From: Thermoplasmata archaeon
Lineage (GTDB): Archaea; Thermoplasmatota; Thermoplasmata; Thermoplasmatales; Thermoplasmataceae
DNA: 10,881 bases
Assembly (NCBI GenBank): GCA_021826795.1
Contig: JAKAYM010000058.1
Span: forward strand, 1-10,881
Direction: 5' to 3'
Shown here: piece after piece, positions 1,762 to 10,881 of the stretch
Numbering within the stretch: the first letter of the stretch is position 1
Layout of the letters: each line of letters starts with the position of its first letter
Program-made: the position numbers and the translations under genes
The notes under the pieces: generated by a model
What the model saw: only the letters and a program-made list of their open reading frames with translations
Database searches by the model: none
What the model was told of the DNA's origin: nothing

Positions 1762-2027
1762 TTCATCAAAAATTATTTGCCTGATATGGGATTACATGGT
1801 ATGGAGATATCCTATAATAAGCTTTATGCTATAAACCTATATTATAAAAAATTCATTTATCGCACTAAAATCATAATAATTATAACGGTATAATTTTAAT
1901 ACTATAAACTAAATATAATGGAAAATGATTAATGTTTAATTTATAGTGTTTGACGTAACTACCTATACCAATTAACCAGCAAACAGAAAACATGTAGAAT
2001 AGCCATTCATGTTTAATTTTAATATTA

Positions 2028-2045
2028 TGTTTCCGTTAAGAAACA
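2028..2045. promoter_or_regulatory. Upstream operator palindrome, TGTTTC-N6-GAAACA
   Basis: This 18-bp inverted repeat has 6-bp arms TGTTTC and GAAACA around CGTTAA. It covers the BRE/upstream side of the TATA box of the ATPase gene. The same arms recur at 2061-2078, with starts 33 bases apart (about three helical turns), so a dimeric regulator could bind both sites on one face of the DNA. Confidence 0.7.
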
Positions 2046-2049
2046 AAAA

Positions 2050-2058
2050 TATATAAAT
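2050..2058 (+). promoter_or_regulatory. TATA box of the ATPase gene
   Basis: TATATAAAT is preceded by an A-rich BRE-like stretch. Its centre is 27 bases before ATG 2081, the archaeal spacing expected for a leaderless transcript starting at or next to the ATG. This supports 2081 over the in-frame ATG at 2090. The box sits exactly between the two palindromic operators. Confidence 0.75.
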
Positions 2059-2060
2059 AA

Positions 2061-2078
2061 TGTTTCCTTAAAGAAACA
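2061..2078. promoter_or_regulatory. Downstream operator palindrome, TGTTTC-N6-GAAACA
   Basis: This is the second copy of the 18-bp palindrome, with the same 6-bp arms and a CTTAAA spacer. It ends two bases before ATG 2081 and therefore covers the predicted transcription start. Occupancy would block polymerase loading, which suggests repression. The cognate regulator is not identifiable here. Confidence 0.7.
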
Positions 2079-2080
2079 TA

Positions 2081-3394
2081 ATGATAAATATGGATGCCGT
2101 CAGACGGGCTATATCAGAATTCATAACTATGGATTTACCAGAGTCCATAGATCGTGATATTGATATAGATCTGTCCGTAAATAAAATTACTGTAATAGCA
2201 GGTATTCGCAGATCCGGAAAAACCTATGAAATTTTCAATATTATGAAGCATTTGCTGGATATCGGAACACCAAGAGGAAATATATTATACATAAATTTTG
2301 AGGATGAACGTTTTATAGGATTTGGTGCCGGGGACTTTGATTATATTATGGATGCGTTTGAACTGTTAAGCGATATAGATAAAAATCATGATATACACAT
2401 TTTTTTCGATGAAATTCAGAATGTTGCTGACTGGGATCGTGCCATCCGCAGATTGTATGATACAAACAAATATAAAATATTTTTAACAGGTTCGTCATCA
2501 AAACTATTGAGCATGGAAATATCAACATCGCTGGCCGGAAGGGATTTAACATATATTATGTATCCATTTTCCTTTAAGGAATTTTTAAGGGCCAAAAAAT
2601 TTAATCCGGATAAATTGCATGTATATTCTGATGCCGGTAAGTTAAAAAAATATGCTATGGAATATATTTTATATGGTGGATTCCCAGAAATTGCATATAT
2701 AGACGATACCAGTACCAAAAGAAGGATTATATCATCGTATTATGATACAATTATATTCCGGGATATGTCTGGAAGGTATAATATCTCTGATATAAATGTG
2801 TTGAAATTAATAATAGGTTACGCCATAAATTCGTATTCTTCTGAGTTCAGTTCCACAAAATTATATAATTACTTAAAATCTATAAATATAAGCATCAGCA
2901 AGAAGACTGTCAGTAATTATATTCAATACGCGGAAAATGCCTTTTTCATTTCCATGAACCTGAAATTTTCAAATAGCTATAAAAAAATGCATCAAACCAG
3001 GAAAAAGTTATATTTAATCGATAATAGTTTTTCCCTGCTTTATAAAAAATCAGACGATAATGGCAAATTACTTGAAAATTCAGTGTATATCCAGTTACTG
3101 CGCATTAAGGAAATATACAATAATATGGATATTTTTTATTATCGCAATGCCTGTGAAATTGATTTTATCGTTACAGAGGATTATAATCTGTTTATGGCAG
3201 TGCAGGCATGCTATGATTTAAATATGAATAACTTTGACAGGGAGGTTAAGCCATTAAAGAAATTCCTTGATAAGTATAATTTAAAAAATGGAATAATTAT
3301 AACCATGAATGATAATAATATAAACATCGGGGATGAGAGAATAAAAATATTAAACTTTTACCAGTGGATGCTGGGTGATATTACGGGTAAATAA
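2081..3394 (+). CDS. AAA_14/DUF4143-type ATPase, 437 residues
   Basis: This belongs to the widespread archaeal and bacterial family of AAA ATPases with a C-terminal DUF4143 domain; its cellular role is not established. Walker A is GIRRSGKT (41-48), Walker B is IHIFFDE (105-111), and a sensor-like LTGSSS lies at 135-140. The family signatures SLAGRDL..YPFSFKEFL (150-169) and YGGFPEIA (198-205) are present. A winged-helix segment follows at about 250-290. The C-terminal part has E332-N, then YYRNACEIDFIV (353-364) and VQACYDL, the layout of the nuclease-like DUF4143 fold, but the usual glutamate-x-lysine after the EIDF strand reads VQACYD, so nuclease activity is doubtful. The gene is monocistronic and visibly more AT-rich than the methyltransferase gene. 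Its start is fixed by the TATA spacing, and the promoter carries two operator palindromes, implying tight repression. The in-protein winged helix makes autoregulation conceivable, but that is inference. Confidence 0.88.
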   Translation: MINMDAVRRAISEFITMDLPESIDRDIDIDLSVNKITVIAGIRRSGKTYEIFNIMKHLLDIGTPRGNILYINFEDERFIGFGAGDFDYIMDAFELLSDIDKNHDIHIFFDEIQNVADWDRAIRRLYDTNKYKIFLTGSSSKLLSMEISTSLAGRDLTYIMYPFSFKEFLRAKKFNPDKLHVYSDAGKLKKYAMEYILYGGFPEIAYIDDTSTKRRIISSYYDTIIFRDMSGRYNISDINVLKLIIGYAINSYSSEFSSTKLYNYLKSINISISKKTVSNYIQYAENAFFISMNLKFSNSYKKMHQTRKKLYLIDNSFSLLYKKSDDNGKLLENSVYIQLLRIKEIYNNMDIFYYRNACEIDFIVTEDYNLFMAVQACYDLNMNNFDREVKPLKKFLDKYNLKNGIIITMNDNNINIGDERIKILNFYQWMLGDITGK

Positions 3395-3416
3395 TAAAGG
3401 ATATGATTAAATGTTT

Positions 3417-3710
3417 TTATGATTTGTCCTGTTTTACCATATGTTTTACCATACCTCTGTATTTGATATATAGATTATTATACATATCATAATCTTCCGG
3501 ATAATATGCTGTATAACCGGTATCAATACTGATATCACCATGGGAAGCCAGTATGGCAGCCCCATAGGCAGATCCACTATCTTCTTTAACCCTGACAGGC
3601 ATATTAAAGACACTGGCAATTATCTGATTCCAGAAATTGATTCTTGTGCCGCCACCGGTTAATATTAAATTTTTTCTATGTATATGGCTTTGGGACAATA
3701 TTATTTTATC
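3417..3710 (-). pseudogene. C-terminal fragment of FGGY (xylulokinase-like) sugar kinase
   Basis: This is the second half of the kinase whose first half lies at 5151-6221. It encodes the C-terminal actin-like ATPase lobe. The hallmark is LTGGGTRINFWNQIIASVFNMPV, followed by GSAYGAAILA, the adenine/phosphate-binding block of the FGGY family. Native coding begins at the GAT codon 3708-3710, shared with the other half, and runs 96 residues past it to the stop at 3417. Upstream the frame continues only three codons into the mobile element before a TAA at 3720-3722, and no promoter or ribosome site is evident. A GTG at 3711-3713 could be read as a start, but the product would lack the substrate lobe and catalytic aspartate. 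The fragment ends 22 bases from the convergent ATPase gene. Confidence 0.88.
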
Positions 3711-3761
3711 CACTTTCAGTTAACGGTATGCAAAACCTTTATTTTAGCTTTACTTCATAAA

Positions 3762-3791: not shown

Positions 3792-5030
3792 ATGACTGTC
3801 TATAAAACTGTTACACAGAAATATACACCATCACAAACCATTACTGAACTACAGAAACAGTTTACTGCAATGACAAATCTGTGCATAACCAGAGCGATAG
3901 ACAATGATATTACATCAAGGAACAGCCTCTCAGAATTTGTATACAGGGAATTAAGTGAGAATTTTAATGTACCATCATATTACTACATAGCTGCAATAAA
4001 CAGGGGTACGGGCATTGTTAAGAACTACCGCAAGGCATCCAGAAAAATGGATAAAAAGAAAAAAGATCTTCTAAAGCTTAATAGTAGGATAAGGAAGATT
4101 AGAAAGGCAGTGAGAACTACAAGAAAGCATGGTACTAAGAAACATGCTAATGGGCTTCAGAGGTCAATGAAAACACTGTTAAAGAAGAGGGGCAGGGTAA
4201 GGTCCGGAAAAATAAAAAAACCGGTGGTCAGAAAACCATTCCTCACATCATATTTTGGATTTAAGATTGAGGGTGGCAATTTAATGGTACCATCAGGGTT
4301 CCATAAATATGAAGTAATACCATTAAATTCATACATAATTTCAGGGATAGAGAATGCAACAGTAAGATCATTTACCATTAATTCTACCACACTATCCCTA
4401 ACTATAGGAATGGAAGTGGAAGAAATTGAATGTAATACAACCATTGGAATAGATAGAAATATAAAGAATATAGCAGTGGGCAATGAGATACATGGAGGAT
4501 TATATGATATCTCAGATATACCAAAGATAAAGAAAAGGTGTAGAAAGAAGAAATTAAAGAGAAATGACAGGAGAATTGGAAGGATAATAGCAAAGAAGTA
4601 TGGGGATCGTAGCAGGAATAGAACTGATCAGATTATACACAGTGTATCAAATGATATTGTAAGGGAAGCAGTAGAGAATAGAGAGGCAATAGTACTGGAG
4701 AATATAAAGGGATTAAAGGATATTACACACCGTGGAGATTATAGGGGTGCTGATTACCGTTTTATATTCCATAATGCCTTTCCATATGGAAGGTTTCAGA
4801 ATACTGTAACATATAAGGCAGAATCCAGGGGAATACAGGTTATTGAACTGACAAGGAAAGAAACAGGAGGAACAAGCTCGTCGTGTACGGTATGCGGGTC
4901 AGAGACCCAAGTAGTACCAGGACGCTTAGTCTACTGTAATTCATGTGATTCTATATCTGACAGGGATGTTACTGCATATATTGATATTGCATTACGGGGT
5001 CGGATAAGGCTAAAACGATCCCAGCTATAG
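3792..5030 (+). CDS. tnpB: TnpB, RNA-guided RuvC-type nuclease of an IS605-family element, 412 residues
   Basis: TnpB proteins are omega-RNA-guided DNA nucleases, ancestral to Cas12, that cut next to a transposon-associated motif and help the element persist. Residues 1-80 match the family's N-terminal block. A basic linker (about 81-150) and beta-rich recognition part follow. RuvC-I is TIGIDRNIKNIAVG with D221, RuvC-II is IVLENIKGLK with E303, then comes a four-cysteine zinc finger (C365, C368, C382, C385) and RuvC-III DRD at 390-392. All three acidic catalytic positions are therefore present, and the protein is full length. RuvC-III reads DRDVTAYIDIA where most relatives have DRDxNAAxNI, so both conserved asparagines are replaced (T394, D398). 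The gene lies antisense to the kinase it disrupts. Its 3' end overlaps the likely omega-RNA region. Activity looks possible but is unproven. Confidence 0.93.
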   Translation: MTVYKTVTQKYTPSQTITELQKQFTAMTNLCITRAIDNDITSRNSLSEFVYRELSENFNVPSYYYIAAINRGTGIVKNYRKASRKMDKKKKDLLKLNSRIRKIRKAVRTTRKHGTKKHANGLQRSMKTLLKKRGRVRSGKIKKPVVRKPFLTSYFGFKIEGGNLMVPSGFHKYEVIPLNSYIISGIENATVRSFTINSTTLSLTIGMEVEEIECNTTIGIDRNIKNIAVGNEIHGGLYDISDIPKIKKRCRKKKLKRNDRRIGRIIAKKYGDRSRNRTDQIIHSVSNDIVREAVENREAIVLENIKGLKDITHRGDYRGADYRFIFHNAFPYGRFQNTVTYKAESRGIQVIELTRKETGGTSSSCTVCGSETQVVPGRLVYCNSCDSISDRDVTAYIDIALRGRIRLKRSQL

Positions 5031-5170
5031 CTAAAAGGCTATCCAGGTGAAGCAATGGTACTGGAATGTTCTGCCTCAAGCGGGTGAACTAATCCAGAAA
5101 GTCGATGGATAGAAGGGACCATTGTCCCACAGCCTATGTATATTCATGGAATCATATACATGTCTCAGGC
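5002..5170 (+). ncRNA. Candidate omega RNA (reRNA) of the TnpB element, with guide entering the kinase gene
   Basis: Known TnpB omega RNAs start inside or near the tnpB 3' end, span the right end and finish with a guide copied from flanking DNA. Nested pairings fit here: GGATA (5002-5006) with TATCC (5039-5043), enclosing GCTA/TAGC; CTGGA (5061-5065) with TCCAG (5093-5097), enclosing TTC/GAA; and the terminal hairpin GGGAC/GTCCC at 5115-5128. The guide would begin at about 5154 (ATATACATGTCTCAGG), on the strand antisense to the kinase mRNA. The 5' end is uncertain and processing is inferred from the family. Confidence 0.5.
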
Positions 5171-6221
5171 TGAAAGCAACACCCTGCATAATTGATATGA
5201 TAAGATCATCAATACCAGTATCAGAGGATAAATTATAAAATAAACCACGGATATCCGTGTTCATAATGGGCGACCTCTCACCATTCAGGTATGGCAGAAA
5301 TAAAACATTAGAAAACCCACCTAAATTTTTTAACCTTGAATACTTAATATTGAATGCTTTCATAAAACAGTCCAGAGAAGATGCTGCAGATTGTGTAACA
5401 CCCATCCAGTGCCATCTATTTTTTTCAGTATCGCAGAATAGATGTATAGATTTATTTTCTGGTATTTTATACTCATTGATTTTTACAAAGACCACACCGG
5501 ATGTTCCCAGTGATATGCCGGCATCGTTTAATGTTAAATTATTGCCATATGCTGCCGCTTCCTGATCACCTGCACCGGCAATTACTGGTATGCCATTAAA
5601 TGATCCATGTATATCCGTTGATTCAAGGACATCTCCGAAAAGCCCATGGTCTATATTTAATCCATTAAAGATTATATTAGACCATTTTCTGGATCTAACG
5701 TTAAATAGATATGTACCCGACCCATCGGTGACATCTGTTCCATGCACTTTCGTCATCATGAATTTGAGCCGGTCCTTTGCCACAAAGGCTTTATTCGCAT
5801 TTTTATATATATTTTTATTATACTTCCTTATCCATAATAGCCGGAGCAATGTAAAATTAGACAGGGGATAATTTCCTGTTTCCCTTATAAGATTTTCAGC
5901 GCCGAATTTTCCGGTAAGGTATTTAGAAAATTTGTACGACCGGTTATCCAGCCATAATATTGAATTCATCAGTGGTTTTCCGTTATTTGTTAATACCAGG
6001 CTATGCATCTGGCCTGTTATGCCAATGCCATCTATTTTCATATTAATATTTTTATACAGTTTTTTGAAGGTTTTTAACCATAACAATGGGTCCTGCTCAG
6101 CATAACCATTGCTGTAATAAATTACAGGATAATTTATAGAATTTTTATAGACCATGCCGTTTTCATTGATTACCACAAATTTCATCGATGTTGTTCCTAA
6201 ATCTATGCCGAGATAATTCAT
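5076..6221 (-). pseudogene. N-terminal fragment of FGGY (xylulokinase-like) sugar kinase, truncated by the TnpB element
   Basis: The intact enzyme would phosphorylate a sugar, most likely a ketopentose such as D-xylulose, using ATP in the cytoplasm. Native residues 1-357 (down to 5151) include the phosphate-binding DLGTTSMKF (7-15), GITGQMHSLV (67-76) and ILWLDNRS (88-95), which are typical of xylulokinases. They also include the catalytic base D219 in GAGDQEAA, SLGTSGVVF, and YLNGERSP (311-318). The next 24 residues and the stop at 5076-5078 come from the element. The rest of the ATPase lobe is at 3417-3710; rejoined, the protein would have about 453 residues, slightly short for the family. 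The start ATG overlaps the dehydrogenase stop as ATGA, indicating translational coupling. Without the GGG block of the C-terminal lobe the product should be inactive. The exact sugar is inferred from residue motifs and neighbour, not proven. Confidence 0.9.
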
Positions 6222-7409: not shown

Positions 7410-7565
7410 ATGGAATTCACAGTCTGCAAATCAGAACATAATAAAAAGCCATTCAAGGAGCAGTATTATGAAAAGTTTAAGGTTTCAGGGTACGAGTGCA
7501 AAGAAATACACAATTCCAACGTTTCAGATGACAGCATGATTTTCACCATACCAAGGGGTGATTGA
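7410..7565 (+). CDS. Small protein of 51 residues, first gene of the methyltransferase operon
   Basis: ATG 7410 opens a frame ending at TGA 7563-7565, two bases before the methyltransferase ATG at 7568. A stop codon at 7395-7397 means the frame cannot be much longer upstream. The protein begins MEFTVCKSEHNKKPF and ends FTIPRGD. It contains two spaced Cys-x3-His pairs (C6/H10 and C30/H34), which could form one zinc site, although this may be chance. The GGGGTGA at its end also serves as ribosome site for the next gene, so the two are probably translationally coupled. I do not recognise the family. It may be a regulator or accessory part of the system, or the tail of a decayed gene. No signal peptide or membrane helix is seen. 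Confidence 0.5.
   Translation: MEFTVCKSEHNKKPFKEQYYEKFKVSGYECKEIHNSNVSDDSMIFTIPRGD
7555..7561 (+). promoter_or_regulatory. Ribosome binding site that decides the methyltransferase start
   Basis: GGGGTGA closely matches the archaeal anti-Shine-Dalgarno complement GGAGGTGA and lies 6 bases before ATG 7568. The alternative in-frame TTG at 7562 directly abuts the motif and would have no spacing, so ATG 7568 is the better start. Confidence 0.6.
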
Positions 7566-7567
7566 GA

Positions 7568-10500
7568 ATGGTTAACCAGGATAAATTTGGACTGGATTTC
7601 TGGCTTGGCAAATTTAGGGAATTGGGTTATCCGATCAAGATCCAGGAGTTCCCGTTAACTCTTCTTAAAGAGCAAAAAATACTGCCTCCAAAAACAACTC
7701 CAACAAGAGTGCTCAGGTTGTTCAACAATGATTTGCTGGATATAGTTGTCGTGGAAGTATCCAATAAAGAACTTTCACGTGGTAGATGTGTAAGCATCGC
7801 ACGATCCTGGAAAAAAAATAATCTCCTCAGTCCGATAATTATTCTTACCGATTCTGTTGAATCCTATGTAACTATTATACCGGGAACAGGATTCAACTCT
7901 GAGGCTAAAATTCTATATCTTTCTGATGAGTTCTATTATACTGATAACCTCGTAATCCAGTCCATGAGATATACTAATGATAAGGTAGAACTGCTGAAGC
8001 TGTATAACAGCAACTTTTTTCCCTACCAGAGTGTCAGGGATGGCTTCTTTTTCAAGTACAGAGATATGTTTCAGGAAATGCTGGGTAAACTCACACCATA
8101 TCTGGAGAGCCATACCAGGTCGTTCGCACAGAAATTCCTAGGCAGGATGATGTTTCTCTATTTTCTGCAGAAAAAAGGGTGGCTTAAGGGTGACAAGAAG
8201 TTCATTAACACCATTAAGAGCTACGACGAACTTAGTTATCTCTATTACAACGGCTTTAATACTGGAAAAATAGAAGGCATACCATTCCTGAATGGATCAC
8301 TCTTTGACAGGGAAGATTACCTAACCAATGAGAAAGAGTCAGAAATATCCGGAATACTGGATGATACCTTCAAGAAAGCAAGAGAGTTTTTAGACCATTA
8401 TAACTTTACCGTGGATGAAACTGCTCCTCTTGAAATAGAAGTTAGTATAGATCCCGCCCTGATTGGAACAATTTTCGAAAATCTCCTGCTGGAGAAGGAA
8501 AGAGGGGAAAAGGGTACATTTTACACACCAAAAGATGAAATTTCATTCATATGCAGACGTGCACTGACACATTATTTAGGGCTTAAAGACAAATATACTT
8601 CTAATAACAAGGAGATGCTTGATGGTATAAAACTGTATCTGGAGGAGCTCAGAAAGAGCAAGGAGATAGATAAAATAAGAGATCTAAAAGAAAAACTTCT
8701 AAATGCTAGAGTTGTTGACCCTGCGGTGGGTTCTGGAGGATTTCTTGTAGTTATGATGCAGGAGATCGTTTCTATCATTACAGAAGCTGATTCCATTGCA
8801 GGTTGGAATTCTGATCCCTATGAATACAAAAAAGCGTTCCATCAAAATCTTTATGGTTTCGATATAGAGCCCGAGGCTGTTGAGATTGCAAGGCTCAGGC
8901 TCTGGCTGTCTATGATTATTGACCAGAAAGTTCCAATACCATTGCCAAACCTTGATTTTAAGATCGTTGATATTCCGGATTCTCTTGAACTTCAAAGTAT
9001 GCAGAAAAAGATAGAACCTGAAATAGAGGAGGAAAGGGACTATGTTGAAAAGTTAATTGAGCAATACTCCAATGAACACGTTAATGAAAATAAGAAGTCC
9101 TTGAAAAATAAAATAGCCCTGCATACAGAAAATCTAAGAAAATATGGCCTGAATCCTGAGGTTATTGAGAGCTACATCGTTAATCCTGCCGATATCGTAG
9201 TTATGAATCCCCCTTACGTAAGACAGGAATCCATAAACCCCGAGAGGAAGAAATATTATGTTGATACATACAAGTTAGACAAGAAATCTGATATATACGT
9301 TTATTTCTTTCTGAGATCTCTTAGACTCCTGAAACCAAATGGTTTTGTTTCTGTTATTTCATCGGACAAATGGCTTGAAACCTCTTATGGAGAGAAACTT
9401 CAGAGCCAGCTGAAAAGCAGGCTGGTGTCTATATATGGTCAGAGAAACAGGTCGTTCGAAGCAGATATAAACACAGTCATAACCGTTTACGGAAATGATA
9501 TGCAGAGCGGTCCTGTTGACTTCACCTACCTGGAAAACTATGCATCAAAAACCGTTATCCACAGAGTTTCTATGGAAAGGACTGAACTTAAGTCAGGCAA
9601 ATGGTTCTATCTCCGTGTTCCTGAATCCTTCCTCAAAGATATTATGCCGAAGCTCACCAACAAACTTGGCGATTTTGCCGAGATAAAGCGTGGTTTTACA
9701 ACAGGTGCCAATGACTTCTTCTACATGAAAGACGTTTCAGCACAGTATGAAACTGACTGCCTTTCTGATCCAAAGAAGTTCGAGGACTGGGGTGTTTTGG
9801 CTAAAAATGAAAAAGAATTGAGGGAGCATAGTCTTATCTATATTGAGAATGAAGGCGGAGAAAAGTTTGTTATTGATAAATCTGATACCAAACCACTAGT
9901 GAGAACCACAAAAGAGCTGAGTTCCTATGAAATCACGGATGTGAACAAACTTTGCCTTTACACGAAAACTCCGGGAGAGTTTACTAAGAAATATATCCTA
10001 TGGGGCGAGAACAAGGAGATTACAATCAGAGGCAGAAAAAAACCGGTAATCGGTTACAATAAAGTACCTTCTGTGTCTGGAAGAAAACAATGGTATTCTC
10101 TTAATGACCTTGAACCAACAAATATAATCCTGCCCATGTACATTATGGATCGATTCTTTATTCCCAGTTCCAAAGACCCGGTTATTTGTGATAATACATT
10201 TTACACTTTTTCGCCTAAAGTAAAAGGTATTCAGAATTATCTGAACTCAACATTTTTTTATATTACAATAGAACTATATTTAAGAAGATTGGGTGGGGGT
10301 GTGGGTGAGGTTAAGGTTGACGATTACAATAAAATACCAGTTCCAGATTTAAGAAAATTTGACCTGACACACATAAATGTAGAACTTAATAGGAAAGTAA
10401 TGAGGTATTTTGAAGAAGTTGGGATGGATGACCGGAAGGCTCTGGACAGAGAAATAGCCAAATGTATTGGAATCAAAGAATTCCAAATTGATGAATTTTA

Positions 10501-10582
10501 CAATGAATTCAAAGAACTTGTAGATGACAGACTGATCAAAGCGGATAGACCACTTAAAAGGAGGGAAGGAGACAATGACTAA
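7568..10582 (+). CDS. Eco57I-like adenine-N6 DNA methyltransferase with fused target-recognition domain, 1004 residues
   Basis: This should methylate the exocyclic amine of adenine at a specific site using S-adenosylmethionine. Residues 1-150 form an alpha/beta domain (LLDIVVVEVSNKE at 56-68) resembling the N-terminal part of other archaeal Eco57I proteins; D58 and E63 fall roughly where a PD-(D/E)XK site might be, but no E-x-K is present. After a helical linker come GTFYTP (316-321, motif X), DPAVGSGGF (384-392, SAM binding), GFDIEPE with D432, and the catalytic NPPY (547-550). A helical insertion at about 475-540 precedes NPPY. From about residue 690, LGDFAEIKRGFTTGANDFF and later GGGVGEVKVDDYNKIPVP are typical of type I/IIG/PglX-like recognition domains. 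It is full length, with two bases between it and the upstream small gene and an 8-base overlap with the downstream gene. It probably belongs to a modification/restriction or BREX/DISARM-like defence operon. A type IIG enzyme with its own nuclease cannot be excluded. Confidence 0.9.
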   Translation: MVNQDKFGLDFWLGKFRELGYPIKIQEFPLTLLKEQKILPPKTTPTRVLRLFNNDLLDIVVVEVSNKELSRGRCVSIARSWKKNNLLSPIIILTDSVESYVTIIPGTGFNSEAKILYLSDEFYYTDNLVIQSMRYTNDKVELLKLYNSNFFPYQSVRDGFFFKYRDMFQEMLGKLTPYLESHTRSFAQKFLGRMMFLYFLQKKGWLKGDKKFINTIKSYDELSYLYYNGFNTGKIEGIPFLNGSLFDREDYLTNEKESEISGILDDTFKKAREFLDHYNFTVDETAPLEIEVSIDPALIGTIFENLLLEKERGEKGTFYTPKDEISFICRRALTHYLGLKDKYTSNNKEMLDGIKLYLEELRKSKEIDKIRDLKEKLLNARVVDPAVGSGGFLVVMMQEIVSIITEADSIAGWNSDPYEYKKAFHQNLYGFDIEPEAVEIARLRLWLSMIIDQKVPIPLPNLDFKIVDIPDSLELQSMQKKIEPEIEEERDYVEKLIEQYSNEHVNENKKSLKNKIALHTENLRKYGLNPEVIESYIVNPADIVVMNPPYVRQESINPERKKYYVDTYKLDKKSDIYVYFFLRSLRLLKPNGFVSVISSDKWLETSYGEKLQSQLKSRLVSIYGQRNRSFEADINTVITVYGNDMQSGPVDFTYLENYASKTVIHRVSMERTELKSGKWFYLRVPESFLKDIMPKLTNKLGDFAEIKRGFTTGANDFFYMKDVSAQYETDCLSDPKKFEDWGVLAKNEKELREHSLIYIENEGGEKFVIDKSDTKPLVRTTKELSSYEITDVNKLCLYTKTPGEFTKKYILWGENKEITIRGRKKPVIGYNKVPSVSGRKQWYSLNDLEPTNIILPMYIMDRFFIPSSKDPVICDNTFYTFSPKVKGIQNYLNSTFFYITIELYLRRLGGGVGEVKVDDYNKIPVPDLRKFDLTHINVELNRKVMRYFEEVGMDDRKALDREIAKCIGIKEFQIDEFYNEFKELVDDRLIKADRPLKRREGDND

Positions 10583-10881
10583 GATAATTGACAACAGTAA
10601 GGGGACTTTATCATCGGTTTTAAATAAGGAAATATCTCACATTGATGAGGTTGCAATTGCTTCAGCATATTTTAATCTAGCTGGCTACAGGGCAGTGGCT
10701 ACTGGCTTAAAGAATAAACCTTTGAAGTTACTTTTAGGTCGTGAGCCATCAGAAAGCGTGAAGTTCGAAGAAGAAGTCATAAAAAGGCTTGAAGAGTTTG
10801 ATGAGGATTTTGCTAGTGAACAGAAGGAGATACTTGGCAATGAGATTATTCAGAACGAGGATAATGGGGATTATAGATCGG
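10575..10881 (+). CDS. Partial gene: phospholipase D (HKD)-like N-terminus, probably of a SNF2-type helicase
   Basis: The frame opens at ATG 10575, after the purine-rich ribosome region AAAAGGAGGGAAGGAGAC, and runs 102 codons to the window edge without a stop. It overlaps the last 8 bases of the methyltransferase gene, so the two are co-translated. The visible part has HIDEVAIASAYFNLAGY (22-38) followed by LKLLLGRE, the strand-turn pattern of PLD-like domains that begin many large SNF2/DEAD helicases next to DNA methyltransferases. A long acidic, helical segment follows. The HKD catalytic motif and any helicase motifs lie beyond the window, so nuclease and helicase functions are inferred from pattern and context only. 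In this family the domain is thought to act as nuclease or DNA-binding module of restriction-like systems. Confidence 0.65.
   Translation, partial: MTKIIDNSKGTLSSVLNKEISHIDEVAIASAYFNLAGYRAVATGLKNKPLKLLLGREPSESVKFEEEVIKRLEEFDEDFASEQKEILGNEIIQNEDNGDYRS

Follow-up and report, generated by a model that had tools for sequence, protein, structure and literature searches.

Twin palindromes 33 bases apart before AAA_14/DUF4143 ATPase genes as a probable private operator of the ATPase

We describe a pair of palindromes located directly before the gene of an AAA_14/DUF4143 ATPase in a Thermoplasmata archaeon, within a stretch of 10,881 nucleotides (contig JAKAYM010000058.1, hereafter the window). Other palindromes, at the same spacing, are found upstream of other AAA_14/DUF4143 genes, in archaea and bacteria. 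The two palindromes are probably, with a probability which we set at about 0.7, a private operator, and the ATPase, a member of a family for which we know of no settled function, would repress its own gene by binding both dyads. The features of the window are the following:

2028-2045: dyad 1, TGTTTCCGTTAAGAAACA, arms TGTTTC and GAAACA with spacer CGTTAA (exact pattern scan)
2046-2060, + strand: 15-base gap of A and T only, with a TATA-box candidate, TATATAAAT, at 2050-2058
2061-2078: dyad 2, TGTTTCCTTAAAGAAACA, same arms with spacer CTTAAA (exact scan; spacing the same in orthologues)
2081-3394, + strand: AAA_14/DUF4143 ATPase gene, 437 aa, proposed autorepressor (Pfam, PADLOC)
2186-2779, + strand: AAA+ ATPase module, about residues 36-233 (AlphaFold2 model)
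2792-3016, + strand: predicted winged helix-turn-helix, about residues 238-312 (AlphaFold2 secondary structure)
2900-2938, + strand: predicted recognition helix, residues 274-286 (model; the region associates with operator sequence)
3059-3373, + strand: C-terminal domain, residues 327-431 (AlphaFold2 model, conservation)
3417-3713 (- strand), 3792-5030 (+ strand), 5076-6221 (- strand): TnpB-family ORF inside an FGGY sugar-kinase gene (Pfam, ORFs)
7562-10880, + strand: BREX PglX / type IIG-like methyltransferase, then the start of a gene without Pfam match

Rescanning of the window returned exactly what the initial annotation had reported: two sites at these coordinates, with identical 6-base arms and starts 33 bases apart, and a TATA-box candidate in the 15-base gap. 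Its claim that the pattern TGTTTC-N6-GAAACA occurs nowhere else in the window holds for exact matches; when up to two mismatches are tolerated, one further match appears at 10072-10089, against a chance expectation of 0.65 single matches at this tolerance. Exact sites being rare both in the window and in 101 related genomes, two of them inside 51 bases are therefore not a product of chance. Only two bases, TA, separate dyad 2 from the ATG of the ATPase at 2081, and TATATAAAT is centred about 27 bases upstream of the same ATG, so that the natural prediction, and a likely one, is a transcript without leader that begins at the ATG or beside it. Dyad 2 would then lie between the TATA candidate and the predicted start, and not over the start, where the initial annotation had placed it.

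A 66%-identical orthologue, found in the Thermoplasmata MAG TL2-1.bin29 (locus L079), carries the pair at equal spacing, directly before its ATG. Alignment of the window to this locus by blastn covers 2023-3100 only, starting five bases upstream of dyad 1: operator and gene align as a single block, between flanks that do not. In the genome containing the locus (G001, 1.9 Mb), this pair accounts for all exact sites. The exact single-site pattern has 19 forward-strand matches, distributed among 16 of 101 related genomes: 11 are lone sites without a neighbour, while 8, in five genomes, precede the ATPase (G001, G008 and G041) or its decayed remains (G005 and G010). At the latter two loci (L119 in G005, L118 in G010) the exact twin operator stands before an ATPase gene with many stops and frame changes. 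Conservation before orthologous genes, on which the initial annotation had made its reading depend, is thus found at L079 and in G008 and G041. A specific operator at its own promoter, conserved with the gene, is one of the marks of an autoregulated repressor, and was observed here.

The paired pattern of the window, with up to three mismatches and no protein information, was then scanned over 389 genomes of the phylum, resulting in six places in five genomes; a reversed control pattern found none in the same 389 genomes. Four of the six lie at already known ATPases or their remnants, one each in G001, G005, G010 and G008. The fifth, in G623, precedes a newly found ATPase, 44% identical and featuring a SKKTI helix; the ATPase is supported as the binder by this result, because a search by operator only led to an ATPase with an SKKT helix. 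The sixth, again in G008, lies 377 bases away from the pair already known there and has no ATPase after it. This pair (L343 4393-4443, - strand, 3 mismatches) faces an IS200/IS605 Y1 transposase (3794-4267, - strand); whether it is a relict operator or serves transposon regulation is undecided, and it is the sole hint of the link to mobile elements which the initial annotation had considered. Nothing in these scans pointed to the stress response named there as well. A regulon, also envisaged there, did not appear for the window operator: with exact sites just at the ATPase in G001, and six paired places in 389 genomes, the regulon reading was rejected for this operator, the one to which both scans refer.

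Upstream regions of other AAA_14/DUF4143 genes contain different palindromes at the same spacing. Pairs were scored by how far their four 6-base half-sites agree (36 at most), with spacings of 22-47 allowed, and the criterion was a score of at least 30 at spacing 32-34. Three overlapping sets of upstreams were analyzed, with homologue start codons assigned by script. In the first, 46 out of 120 upstreams had a score equalled by no more than 2 in 60 dinucleotide shuffles (p<0.05), with spacing 32-34 in 41 out of the 46; in the second, the criterion was reached by 60 out of 180 upstreams versus 3 out of 467 control ORFs. The final set comprises 277 distinct homologue upstreams, 85 of which pass, versus 3 out of 641 controls, which are mechanically defined ORFs (at least 120 aa, first ATG) of the same loci and may not all be genes (Fisher p 9e-45, relatedness ignored); a perfect score is attained by 17 homologue upstreams and by none of the 641 controls. 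The remaining 192 homologue upstreams miss the criterion. Spacing among the 102 upstreams scoring at least 30 is sharply distributed: 33 in 50, 32 in 22, 34 in 13 and any other value in 17. What had been regarded as unusual for a lone AAA_14/DUF4143 ATPase is, by these counts, a recurrent feature of the family. The geometry does resemble that of a two-site operator.

The homologue loci were the best-scoring ones (best 80 of 576 confirmed stretches, and up to 30 loci per further search), plus 60 further regions fetched from one search, and the set is not a random sample. The 277 exclude 30 PF01637 loci, upstreams containing N or shorter than 100 bases, hits whose match to the model begins past position 60, and upstreams that repeat the last 60 bases of another; L344, L345 and four plasmid loci were added later and lie outside the 277. 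Clustering the proteins longer than 330 aa by single linkage, the pair is found in 38 out of 88 clusters at 50% identity, and in 9 out of 19 at 40%. With a score of at least 29 and spacing 32-34, prevalence is 10 out of 10 above 500 bits to the A1 model, 10 out of 14 at 400-500 bits, and about a quarter to a third below 400. Pair-bearing members are found in Thermoplasmata, DPANN, other archaea and several bacterial phyla. When the DUF4143 genes of 20 genomes, many of them distant, were evaluated, 5 out of 27 had the pair, at least three of which (L205, L207 and L218) were already in the main set. None of the four named plasmid homologues passes; by eye, those of Sulfuricurvum and Calditerrivibrio plasmids show half-degenerate pairs with TTGACA in dyad 1. 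Upstream of the ATG of an Ignavibacteria homologue (L015) there are apparently three successive ATCCTT..AAGGAT palindromes, and at L062 a + strand control ORF, starting at base 158, is preceded by two near-identical palindromes, ATATCAAATATGATAC and GTATCAAATATGATAC, 32 bases apart.

Placement relative to the gene is of two main kinds. In the 93 pairs with score at least 29 and spacing 32-34, whose gaps are 85% A+T, the centre of the second dyad lies at -18 to -5 relative to the start codon in 49, that of the window included, and further upstream, at -60 to -25, in 35. In four members (L028, L047, L061 and L310, with CCTTG or TACTTG operators) dyad 1 contains a -35-like hexamer and the gap ends with a -10-like one; a -35/-10 regular expression matches 8 out of 93 pairs in all. 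Since both placements and the bacterial -35/-10 arrangement share the same spacing, no single core-promoter type seems to dictate it.

The window protein scores above the Pfam cut-offs for both AAA_14 (PF13173; E 3.2e-36, 124.6 bits versus 27) and DUF4143 (PF13635; E 8.8e-14, 52 bits versus 28.1), and thus belongs to the family, while no match to PF01637 was found up to E 0.001 in Pfam, which places it outside that one. Its AlphaFold2 model has a mean pLDDT of 90.9, and the residues checked in Walker A (G41-T48) and Walker B (D110-E111) vary little or not at all among the 91 sequences of alignment A2. A sequence search of solved structures with the window protein gave no match up to E 1; fold-search matches of the whole protein fall mainly on residues 12-325. 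In the C-terminal domain, E332 and D361 are presumably the acidic residues of a PD-(D/E)xK-like arrangement, with C377 at what we take to be the position of the catalytic lysine. The lysine test speaks against a PD-(D/E)xK nuclease: position 377, C in the window, is T, C or S in 233 out of 268 homologues and K in just 15, and because of this scarcity of lysine the domain is probably not an ordinary nuclease.

These genes are abundant (in one search, 4407 proteins at E<=0.001 among 7996 candidates scored), multicopy, patchily distributed and in places plasmid-borne: 13 matches were counted in G008, and the 1-Mb genome G116 has 25 for DUF4143. The plasmid collection holds no close DNA match to window positions 1900-3420. 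Viral relatives amount to one distant IMG/VR locus, none in another search, and 20 phage records below 60% identity. In the window, a toxin-antitoxin operon was considered and rejected, because the first + strand ORF of 60 aa or longer after the ATPase is TnpB, 397 bases past its stop. The TnpB ORF splits the FGGY kinase, with the larger part on one side and the C-terminal end on the other; no TnpA was found among the window ORFs scanned. The region at 7562-10880 is possibly a defence or restriction locus.

Operator sequence follows the protein. Comparing 65 pairs between genomes, mean operator identity is 0.88 at 70-97% protein identity (19 comparisons), 0.68 at 50-70% (53), 0.51 at 40-50% (151) and 0.45 at 30-40% (1210). 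For paralogues of the same genome (28 comparisons), the mean is about 0.45 and the maximum 0.61, and in G046 three neighbouring ATPases, within 5 kb, have three different operators. The arms thus follow the ATPase, not the host; because the operator diverges with the protein and differs among paralogues of one genome, the factor that reads it would be encoded along with it, i.e. the ATPase, and a general host transcription factor is ruled out by the differences between paralogues. At the predicted recognition helix, SKKT goes with GTTTC arms in 6 out of 6 cases versus 0 out of 91, and Asp275 with CCTT arms in 12 out of 22 versus 1 out of 75, both tests having been framed after inspection of the operator table, with P-values that ignore phylogeny. 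When all upstreams are taken, irrespective of the operator call, 5 out of 11 SKKT proteins lack three or more GTTTC half-sites. Operator and winged helix covary modestly (peak partial r 0.15-0.18, phylogeny not corrected for); windows 123-143 and 25-49 are also near the top of the ranking, and the highest single column, R123, lies in the AAA module. A DPANN homologue again has GTTTC arms, and arms of the TCCTT type are found in both bacteria and archaea. Given the association of helix and arms and the co-divergence of operator and protein, the reading best supported by these sequence comparisons is the one suggested in the initial annotation, binding of the ATPase by way of its winged helix.

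In the mechanism that we propose, an ATPase dimer would sit on each dyad, contacting it through the recognition helices of the winged-helix domains. The two dimers would lie on one face of the DNA, as 33 bases are about three turns, and would clamp the core promoter between and beneath them, BRE/TATA in archaea and -35 and -10 in bacteria, so that the product would shut down its own gene. Repression may be lifted by ATP binding, AAA+ assembly or another trigger.

Placement speaks for a different role, in which the ATPase would bind its own operator as an activator, or the operator would be a resting platform for the AAA+ protein. Archaeal activators usually bind upstream, where the 35 more distant pairs are located, and STAND-type ATPases are switches; at those 35 pairs, which count against our best explanation, activation is as plausible as repression. 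In 49 of the 93 pairs, however, the window's among them, the second dyad is centred 5-18 bases before the start codon, over the core promoter or adjacent to it. The position of the -35-like and -10-like hexamers in four members implies exclusion of the polymerase. We regard a role as activator or platform as unlikely. That a separate, dedicated transcription factor occupies the palindromes is distinctly improbable: operators of such size are mostly bound by small helix-turn-helix regulators, but no other small HTH gene is evident next to the ATPase in the window, and operators which differ between paralogues of a genome and agree among close homologues across genomes would require a co-travelling regulator for each clade. 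Moreover, the arms track the predicted helix of the ATPase itself, and both GTTTC and TCCTT-type arms cross lineages.

A multicopy, patchy, partly plasmid-borne gene, whose product combines an Orc1/Cdc6-like fold with nuclease-like acidic residues in the C-terminal domain, might also suggest that the pair is the DNA target of another activity, namely a recombination, homing or replication site. The pair lies at the promoter and start codon, though, neither the 3' end of the gene nor any other part of G001 holds a second exact pair, and the rarity of the expected catalytic lysine (15 out of 268 homologues) points the same way; we give this explanation very little credence. Chance similarity finds some ground in A+T-rich upstreams, which yield weak palindromes (27 out of 641 controls score 30 at any spacing), but not in the sharp peak at 33, given 3 out of 641 controls at spacing 32-34; an RNA hairpin pair in the leader is opposed by the position of dyad 1, which, being upstream of the TATA candidate, would stay untranscribed. 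The likelihood of either is almost nil. Autorepression by the ATPase remains the reading that we prefer.

Several known systems resemble parts of this arrangement. The archaeal AAA+ ATPases SSO1545 (PDB 2fna) and PABY2304 (PDB 2qen) have a similar fold, and VIA-align superposes the window ATPase on them over residues 17-323. Both are, we assume, PF01637 proteins. Genes of PF01637, taken from relatives of G001, were rejected as carriers of the same device: the 33-base pair is rare among them (1 out of 30 at score at least 29 and spacing 32-34, with start codons assigned by script and one locus with an ORF of just 75 aa), and several have instead a single palindrome, which lies at the start codon or immediately ahead of it. 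In ten of these loci (L222, L224, L225, L231, L234-L236, L238, L240 and L244), from several genomes, a single palindrome of the shared type AGTATAAAGTATTATACT is placed likewise relative to an ATG, and is perhaps a different self-operator. Controller (C) proteins of restriction-modification systems autoregulate through two adjacent dyads before their own gene, as proposed here, but are small one-domain HTH proteins with another dyad spacing, and not ATPases. Orc1/Cdc6 initiators (PDB 2qby), the top Foldseek match (E 9.6e-8), share AAA+ and winged helix, but the TM-score is just 0.32, and these proteins act at replication origins. The window protein also matches the PADLOC models of PDC-S01 (best E 3e-105), presumably a candidate label for phage defence; in the material consulted it is a candidate label only, with no mechanism or regulation attached. 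IniR, the mycobacterial AAA+ regulator of iniBAC, is like the window ATPase in joining an SSO1545-like AAA+ to a DNA-binding domain, and is reported to bind a promoter, but it has MalT-like and SdiA-like domains and reportedly activates an operon other than its own (PMC5760070). Among the open-licence PMC papers listed first in the searches, no title or abstract describes a twin self-operator device.

For Thermus, a report on an ago mutant states that TT_P0211, an AAA_14/DUF4143 gene, is 6.6-fold up in plasmid-bearing wild-type cells, and that no gene changed over 4-fold in the mutant (PMC4406477). Judging from domains and place, this is presumably TT_RS11170 of T. thermophilus HB27 (pTT27), upstream of which (L344 15074-15190, - strand) lie two perfect, unlike palindromes, TGCCATCTC-N5-GAGATGGCA and TGAATGA-N3-TCATTCA. 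The PDC-S01 match and the rise of TT_P0211 may be leads to what might lift repression, and are not taken as evidence.

A private, conserved operator predicts which DNA each AAA_14/DUF4143 protein should bind, and suggests how many paralogues can coexist. A self-operator also turns the matter of what lifts repression into a question for a reporter screen, and the pairs of helix and operator are a natural series for the specificity code of winged helices. Tentatively, and with considerable doubt, one may go further and imagine a one-gene switch, common to archaea and bacteria, in which a STAND-like ATPase would sit on its own promoter through two dyads spaced by 33 bases until an invader signal released it into a burst of its own expression, with private operators, evolved lineage by lineage, letting many paralogues coexist without cross-talk.
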